Source: Rudaea sp. (GTDB lineage Bacteria > Pseudomonadota > Gammaproteobacteria > Xanthomonadales > Rhodanobacteraceae). Taken from it: DNA of 64,000 nt. Positions 36,970 through 41,899 of the stretch are shown piece after piece. The DNA is taken from positions 1 through 64,000 of the forward strand of contig JARLJU010000089.1 in the NCBI GenBank assembly GCA_031291055.1. Reading direction: 5' to 3'. Position 1 is the first letter of the stretch, and every line of letters starts with the position of its first letter. The position numbers and the translations under genes are program-made. The notes below the pieces were generated by a model. It searched no databases. It was not told where the DNA came from and worked only from the letters and a program-made list of their open reading frames with translations.

Positions 36970-37676
36970 GCCAGGACAAGCTCAAGCTTGAGCCATCGTG
37001 GAAGGCGCGCATCGGCGCGCACTTCGATCGCCCGGAAATGCAGCGGCTCGCGGAATTCCTGCGCGCCCAGCTGCGTGCGGGCAAAGTGATCTACCCGGCG
37101 CCGGGCCGCATTTTCGCCGCGCTGGATGCGACGCCGTTCGACCGGGTCAAGGTCGTTATTCTTGGTCAGGATCCCTACCATGGACCGGGGCAGGCGCATG
37201 GCCTGTGCTTCTCGGTGCTGCCCGGCGTGCCGCCGCCACCGTCGTTGCTGAACATCTTTGCGGAGATCCAGCGCGAACTGAACATTCCGCGGCCGGACCA
37301 CGGCTGCCTGCTGCCTTGGGCGCAGCAGGGTGTGCTGCTGCTCAATTCGGTGTTGACGGTCGAGCGTGGCCTGGCCGGCTCGCATCAGGGCAAGGGTTGG
37401 GAAGGGTTCACCGATGCCGTGGTCGACAAGCTCAATCGGGAACGCGACGGTCTGGTTTTCCTGCTCTGGGGCAGCTATGCCCAGGCCAAGGGCAAGCTGA
37501 TCGACACGCAGCGACACTTGGTGCTCAAGGCGCCTCATCCATCGCCTCTGTCGGCCCATCGCGGTTTTATTGGGTGCGGGCATTTTTCCATGGCAAACAA
37601 TTGGTTGCGTGATCACGGGCAAACCGAAATCGATTGGCGCCTGCCGCCGGTTCGCGACCTTGCCAGTGTCGCTTGA
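36966..37676 (+). CDS. ung: Uracil-DNA glycosylase
   Basis: [22 protein letters not shown]...[21 protein letters not shown] start overlapping the previous gene. Confidence 0.97.
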
Positions 37677-37700
37677 ATTGGTGTACCATTGAGTTCAGAA

Positions 37701-37725
37701 AACCCCGCCGTCCATTGGCGGGGTT
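37701..37725 (+). terminator. Terminator-like hairpin downstream of ung
   Basis: AACCCCGCC-GTCCATT-GGCGGGGTT 9-bp perfect stem; only a weak T tract. Confidence 0.55.
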
Positions 37726-37742
37726 GGAACTTTCAACGGCCT

Positions 37743-37769
37743 TTGGCACTCTCATATCCGGAGTGCCAA
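37743..37769 (+). promoter_or_regulatory. CIRCE-like (HrcA) operator upstream of rpoH
   Basis: TTGGCACTC-N9-GAGTGCCAA, perfect 9-bp arms; 16 of 18 arm positions match CIRCE consensus TTAGCACTC-N9-GAGTGCTAA with a compensatory change. Confidence 0.75.
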
Positions 37770-37799
37770 TCGACTCTCTTCATTATCAGGGAGTGCTAA

Positions 37800-38660
37800 A
37801 TGACTACAGCTTTGATCGCCAACAACCTGCCGATACCCAGTGCCCTGGGCAGTCTGGATGCGTATGTTTCCAACGTGCATCAGATTCCGGTTCTGACGCT
37901 TGAGCAAGAACAGAGTCTGGCGCGTCGCTACGGCGCCGACAACGATCTTGAGGCCGCCAGGCAACTGGTGATGTCGCATCTGCGTTTCGTCGTGCATGTG
38001 GCGCGTGGCTACAACGGTTACGGTCTGCAACTGGCCGATCTCATCCAGGAGGGCAACATTGGTCTGATGAAGGCGGTCAAGCGCTTCAATCCAGACGTGG
38101 GCGTGCGCCTGGTGTCGTTTGCGGTGCACTGGATCCGCGCCGAAATGCATGAGTTCATTTTGCGCAATTGGCGCATTGTGAAAATTGCGACAACCAAGGC
38201 GCAGCGCAAGCTGTTCTTCAATCTGCGCAAATCCAAGAAACGCCTGGGCTGGATGAATTCGCAGGAGGTTGCCGCGGTGGCCAAGGACCTCGGCGTACCG
38301 GTTTCCGACGTGCTGGAAATGGAATCGCGCCTGAGCGGCCACGATATGGCCTTCGACGCCCCGGTCGATGCCGACGACGATGCCAAGCCCTCGCCGGGCG
38401 CGTACTTGGTCGATCACGCCACCGATCCGTATCACACCCTGGAAAATGAAAATCAGGAAGAGTCGGATCTGGACGCGCTCAAACATGGCCTGGCGAGGCT
38501 CGATGCGCGCTCGCGCGACATCATCCAGCGCCGCTGGCTCAAGGATGACGACAAGGCCACCTTGCAGGAACTGGCCGACGAATACGGCGTTTCCGCCGAA
38601 CGCATTCGTCAGGTCGAAGTCAATGCGATGAAGAAGATGCGCACGCTGTTCGCCGCCTGA
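37800..38660 (+). CDS. rpoH: RNA polymerase heat-shock sigma factor (sigma-32)
   Basis: [41 protein letters not shown]...[28 protein letters not shown] (RpoH box). Confidence 0.97.
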
Positions 38661-41290: not shown

Positions 41291-41899
41291 ATGCCTACAA
41301 TGACGCATACAATCCCCCTTACGTCACCCTTGAGCTGGATACCCGGGCGAGTGGACGCAGCCAAAGCGGATGAGCGCACGCTCGATCTGTTTCTCAGAAA
41401 CGTTGAGCGACGGGCTCTGCGTATGGCCGAACTCGCCACGGCCAATCGTGACGAAGCCTTGGATCTGGTTCAGGACGCCATGTTCGGGTTCGTGCGGCAT
41501 TATGCGGCGAAGCCGCCGGAGGAGTGGGCGCCGTTGTTCTATCGCGTGCTCGATAGCAGGCTCAATGACTGGCATCGCCGGCGGCAGGTGCGCAGCCGCT
41601 GGCTGAGCGTCTTTACGCGCGACCCGGAAGACGATGAAAGCGACGAAATCGCGCAGGCACCCGATCTCAGCGACCCCGGACCGTTGTTGCGCCTTGCGGG
41701 CGGCGAGGCGGCGCGGGATCTGGAGGCTGCGCTTGCACGTCTGCCCTTGCGTCAGCGCCAGGCTTTCCTGCTGCGGGTGTGGGAAGGTTTCGACGTGGCC
41801 GCGACAGCCAGCGCCATGCGCTGCAGCGACGGTAGCGTGAAGACCCACCTATCGCGCGCATTGACGGCGTTGCGCCGCGCGCTGGAGGATCATGCATGA
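41291..41899 (+). CDS. ECF-type RNA polymerase sigma factor
   Basis: Sigma-70 region 2/4 pattern: DEALDLVQDAMFGFVRHYA...LPLRQRQAFLLRVWEGFDVAATASAMRCSDGSVKTHLSRAL. Confidence 0.92.
   Translation: MPTMTHTIPLTSPLSWIPGRVDAAKADERTLDLFLRNVERRALRMAELATANRDEALDLVQDAMFGFVRHYAAKPPEEWAPLFYRVLDSRLNDWHRRRQVRSRWLSVFTRDPEDDESDEIAQAPDLSDPGPLLRLAGGEAARDLEAALARLPLRQRQAFLLRVWEGFDVAATASAMRCSDGSVKTHLSRALTALRRALEDHA

Follow-up and report, generated by a model that had tools for sequence, protein, structure and literature searches.

The usual account of heat-shock control treats repression by HrcA and activation by sigma-32 as two alternative strategies existing side by side. For the Bacillus repressor, release of HrcA when GroE is busy is established. 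To judge by its title, a 2003 study by Permina and Gelfand reportedly deals with these regulons in the beta- and gamma-proteobacteria, and it may already list rpoH sites. The familiar targets of HrcA and its CIRCE operator are the groESL and dnaK operons. A CIRCE upstream of rpoH has been predicted from sequence in Geobacter sulfurreducens (Rodionov et al. 2004, PMC545781), and promoter P3 of E. coli rpoH is sigma-E dependent (PMC8103513). At the locus described here, the HrcA site appears to be placed to control sigma-32 production itself, on top of a putative sigma-E promoter.

In the window, the whole 64-kb stretch of DNA that was analysed, rpoH has neighbours that include ftsE, ftsX, ung and priA. 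A sequence-only reading had named the gene as rpoH, and the open reading frame concerned does match the sigma-32 family. Another open reading frame near rpoH, at 41291-41899, resembles an ECF-type sigma factor and has a weak match to TIGR02939. The control region and gene comprise the following features:

37660..37689, + strand: candidate upstream sigma-70 promoter TTGCCA-N18-TACCAT, a consensus match only
37701..37725, no strand assigned: GC-rich inverted repeat AACCCCGCC-GTCCATT-GGCGGGGTT, between ung and the sigma-E-type -35, with no T-run
37726..37732, + strand: sigma-E-type -35 GGAACTT, its GAAC at a fixed offset in relatives
37743..37769, no strand assigned: CIRCE operator, predicted for HrcA, TTGGCACTC-N9-GAGTGCCAA, conserved upstream of rpoH and co-occurring with hrcA
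37750..37754, + strand: sigma-E-type -10 TCTCA, formed by the left arm's last two bases and the spacer's first three, 17 nt from the -35
37788-37793, + strand: Shine-Dalgarno AGGGAG, within the feature 37788..37799
37791-37799, + strand: GAGTGCTAA, identical to the consensus right arm of CIRCE, adjoining the rpoH ATG and overlapping the Shine-Dalgarno
37800..38660, + strand: rpoH, sigma-32, 286 aa (TIGR02392, E 5e-125)

Read directly, the letters at 37743-37769 are TTGGCACTC-TCATATCCG-GAGTGCCAA, a perfect 9-9-9 CIRCE palindrome (arm, spacer, arm) with the rpoH start codon 30 bp downstream. Compared with TTAGCACTC-N9-GAGTGCTAA at a spacer of exactly 9 nt, the arms have 2 mismatches in 18 positions; these two departures compensate each other, and the arms are symmetric at 9/9 positions. 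The earlier description, with its 9-bp arms, 9-nt spacer, 16/18 identity and a deviation mirrored in the other arm, is thus correct letter for letter. The palindrome is the only CIRCE match with three or fewer mismatches in the window, where shuffling gives an expectation of 0.01.

The genome encodes HrcA in an open frame (C244; TIGR00331, 324.5 bits against a cut-off of 197.2), followed by an open reading frame that reads as grpE. The sequence-only reading had proposed confirming that hrcA is present and has its own CIRCE; the gene is present and the site is absent, the best match in the 4-kb hrcA locus having 6 mismatches, and hrcA autoregulation through CIRCE was accordingly rejected. The genome scan which that reading had also proposed returned only three exact TTNGCACTC-N9-GAGTGCNAA sites in 5.07 Mb. 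One is the rpoH site, another lies upstream of groES, and the third falls within the open reading frame of a DUF1501 protein. The last of these (L001 1501-1527, G000:C134:25802-25828; frame ...FDLHSGFWSANGG...) is asymmetric. Being both intragenic and asymmetric, it was set aside as an operator and is probably due to chance. As the exact sites, with the DUF1501 one taken as chance, include none at hrcA, the predicted HrcA regulon of this genome is therefore groESL and rpoH. The genome also has rpoE (TIGR02939, 326 bits), followed by an open reading frame reading like RseA. Upstream of this rpoE stands TGAACTA-N17-TCTAT, whose spacing equals that of the rpoH element in the window.

The rpoH upstream regions compared came from three sets, namely 78 named loci of the genome collection, 29 genomes belonging to the same family and 89 genomes across the class, and CIRCE was scored as present at three or fewer mismatches. 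It precedes rpoH, a heat-shock gene, in 29/29 genomes of the family, 44/78 named loci and 75/89 genomes of the class (Gammaproteobacteria), although the last figure is not an unbiased class-wide estimate because the class loci were those in the draw with the better rpoH match scores. Shuffled rpoH upstreams never came below five mismatches. The palindrome is therefore kept in relatives, a check that had been suggested with the original reading. In the class sample, CIRCE occurs at rpoH in 74 of 79 genomes with hrcA vs. 1 of 10 without (Fisher P = 3e-8; since the loci are related by descent, this and the other P values given here overstate independence). The sole CIRCE-bearing genome without hrcA has a degenerate site with 3 mismatches. 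Taken together, these observations support the interpretation of 37743-37769 as a putative HrcA operator upstream of rpoH.

Five of the 79 hrcA-bearing genomes in the class sample have no CIRCE at rpoH. In hrcA-bearing L175 (G277), rpoH retains GGGAACTT and the left CIRCE half TTGTCACTCCAA, with the right arm lost, which looks like loss of the operator with retention of the sigma-E promoter. The sigma-E -10 of L034, L038 and L032, also without CIRCE, is CACTCTAA or CACTCTTA, similar to a left CIRCE arm surviving as a relic. A C-to-G shift in the rpoH operator, giving TTAGCAGTC-N9-GACTGCTAA, is seen in L009, L011, L013, L161 and L173, from Lysobacteraceae and genomes of the same order, and also in L126; it is symmetric in several of these loci. 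At groES, the sites of two genomes with the shifted rpoH operator are only half shifted (L245, L250). Drift of HrcA specificity is a possible explanation of the shifted operators.

Aligning 145 non-redundant rpoH loci on CIRCE revealed three conserved features outside the arms. Upstream, the first G of GGAACTT lies at -16 or -17 relative to CIRCE, and GAAC is found there in 110/145 loci vs. ~3 expected from background. Within the spacer, the first bases are T, A or C, and A, with A at the third position in 79% of loci; joined to the left arm's terminal TC they give TCTNA, a sigma-E -10. Directly after the right arm comes NNT, with T in 91% of loci, which together with the arm makes TGCTAANNT, an extended sigma-70 -10, and 18 bp upstream of this the left arm supplies TTAGCA or TTGGCA. 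The sigma-E -35 and -10 are separated by 16 nt in 84 loci and by 17 nt in 24, and in the window GGAACTT and TCTCA span 37726-37754 at a spacing of 17. The consensus used for sigma-E is that of E. coli.

These elements also co-vary. The sigma-E -35 and the -10 A are both present in 105 of the 145 loci and both absent in 25, leaving 15 mixed cases (five with the -35 and no A, ten with the A and no -35; P = 2e-15), and the coupling holds in the class sample alone (P = 2e-8). Similarly, the T at CIRCE position 24 is lost only where the flank T is lost too (4/4, P = 3e-5), as expected if both are part of one sigma-70 -10. At least one of the sigma-70 flank T and the sigma-E -35 is retained in all but one of the loci (144/145). 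Both sigma-E elements, -35 and -10, survive in the window, which has lost the right-arm sigma-70 element. A genome-wide search for the strict pattern GGAACTTN16-18TCTNA gave 1 match vs. 4 for a reversed-pattern control and was dropped as proof; because the strict pattern is no commoner than the control, the call of a sigma-E promoter rests on conservation and not on the single sequence.

The CIRCE sites at groES served as a control (29 sites, 28 from the class plus that of this genome). They share the operator and presumably the repressor with rpoH, but sit differently: at groES a CTTGAC...TATTA promoter precedes the operator, whereas at rpoH the operator overlaps the -10. The flanks differ in every feature tested, with GAAC at the offset in 0/29 groES sites, A at spacer position 3 in 5/29 and T at the third flank base in 3/29 (all P below 1e-8 against rpoH).

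The CIRCE in the window thus looks like an operator overlapping the sigma-E promoter of rpoH. This goes beyond the earlier reading in that the operator appears to be built into a sigma-E-type promoter and, in most relatives, into a sigma-70-like promoter as well. We consider it probable that CIRCE covers the -10 of a sigma-E-dependent rpoH promoter, GGAACTT-N17-TCTCA, and that HrcA bound there blocks sigma-E-driven rpoH transcription. The model is built on the palindrome, the hrcA and rpoE genes, the groES site, the conservation of the operator and its co-occurrence with hrcA, the fixed geometry and the co-variation of the promoter elements. From these we infer HrcA binding, promoter activity, the direction of control and a roadblock to the upstream promoter. 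In unstressed cells, a dimer of the genome's own HrcA on the palindrome would exclude sigma-E polymerase, and would probably also block transcripts from the upstream sigma-70 promoter. Under protein-folding stress the chaperonin would be titrated and HrcA released, a coupling to GroE that we infer for this HrcA by analogy, and the level of rpoH transcription would then follow sigma-E activity proportionally. Signals of envelope stress, through sigma-E, and of GroE sufficiency, through HrcA, would in this way be joined to the sigma-32 regulon at rpoH.

The strongest competing explanation, which we nevertheless regard as unlikely, is that the likeness of GGAACTT and TCTCA to a sigma-E promoter is irrelevant in this genome, CIRCE being a simple HrcA operator that forms a roadblock within a leader transcribed by sigma-70 polymerase. 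Consistent with it, most members of the family have a TACNAT-like box upstream of CIRCE similar to the one at 37660-37689, and 34 of the 35 rpoH-CIRCE loci without GAAC retain the sigma-70-like TGCTAANNT. However, leaving the window aside, 24 of the 25 family loci keep GAAC of the sigma-E -35; across the class, loss of this -35 goes together with loss of the -10 A; and the window's own right arm with its flank reads TGCCAATCG, no longer a match to a sigma-70 -10. The other inverted repeat upstream, at 37701-37725, was not called by terminator prediction and is no clear terminator for transcription running towards rpoH.

It is very improbable that the repeat works instead at the RNA level, as a hairpin of the rpoH leader that serves as a thermometer or stability element. 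The leader does fold into two stems, one formed by CIRCE and the other covering the Shine-Dalgarno (z = -2.3), and the symmetric variant arms would pair as RNA too. Against this, the exact 9-nt spacing and the sequence are conserved beyond what mere pairing would need, presence of the site tracks hrcA, and a transcript from the sigma-E promoter would be without the left arm. Rfam produced no thermometer match, its sole result being isrJ, below threshold and on the opposite strand, and the sequence pairing with the Shine-Dalgarno was not seen in congeners, so that no conserved structure sequestering it was found by either route. The GAGTGCTAA half-site at the rpoH ATG has no counterpart in the rpoH upstream regions of the congeners compared, and was left out of the model for that reason. 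Least probable of all is that the palindrome arose by chance or is a decayed, functionless relic. The two departures from consensus and the look-alike exact match inside the DUF1501 coding frame could be cited for this; against it stand the constant position of the site before rpoH in every family relative sampled, the symmetric change in the arms and an intact hrcA.

Returning to an operator built into the sigma-E promoter, the comparisons incline us, with less assurance than for the window itself, to a wider reading. Among Gammaproteobacteria (as GTDB defines them) that have kept hrcA, it may be common for the control region of rpoH to be one composite element whose CIRCE arms serve as -10s, the left for sigma-E and the right for sigma-70. 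Because both arms would double as -10 elements, one HrcA dimer would gate both promoters. HrcA would then be a general gatekeeper of sigma-32 synthesis, and the enterobacteria, the standard model group, the exception that lost HrcA and kept an ungated sigma-E promoter. Three stress circuits (HrcA, sigma-E and sigma-32) seem to converge on a short piece of DNA before rpoH, an arrangement found in most of the relatives examined. If this is true, most hrcA-bearing Beta- and Gammaproteobacteria have a three-input switch at rpoH that is absent in E. coli, and E. coli is a poor guide to how the heat-shock response starts. The effects of single-base mutations are sharply predicted by the model.

The closest counterpart of the promoter is the GAACTT...TCTGA element lying upstream of rpoH in enterobacteria, which we take to be E. 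coli rpoH P3. Gene, GAACTT -35, TCTNA -10 and 16-17 nt spacing are all shared, and the 16-nt spacing dominant at rpoH-CIRCE loci is that of the enterobacterial element; the enterobacterial rpoH loci examined, in contrast, have no CIRCE and so no HrcA gate. For the operator, the closest counterpart is that of Geobacter sulfurreducens, the one species for which, at least, the hint in the sequence-only reading at earlier reports of CIRCE near rpoH is right (PMC545781). Operator sequence and target gene are the same there, but the phylum is different, the site is one table entry with no composite promoter described (PMC545781), and the Geobacteraceae rpoH locus in our sample (L086) has no GAAC -35. 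No report of a sigma-E promoter built into CIRCE was found in the literature searched, which was mainly the open literature. With CIRCE at rpoH already predicted for G. sulfurreducens and no composite promoter reported, the operator is therefore of a known kind, and what appears new is the promoter architecture at rpoH.
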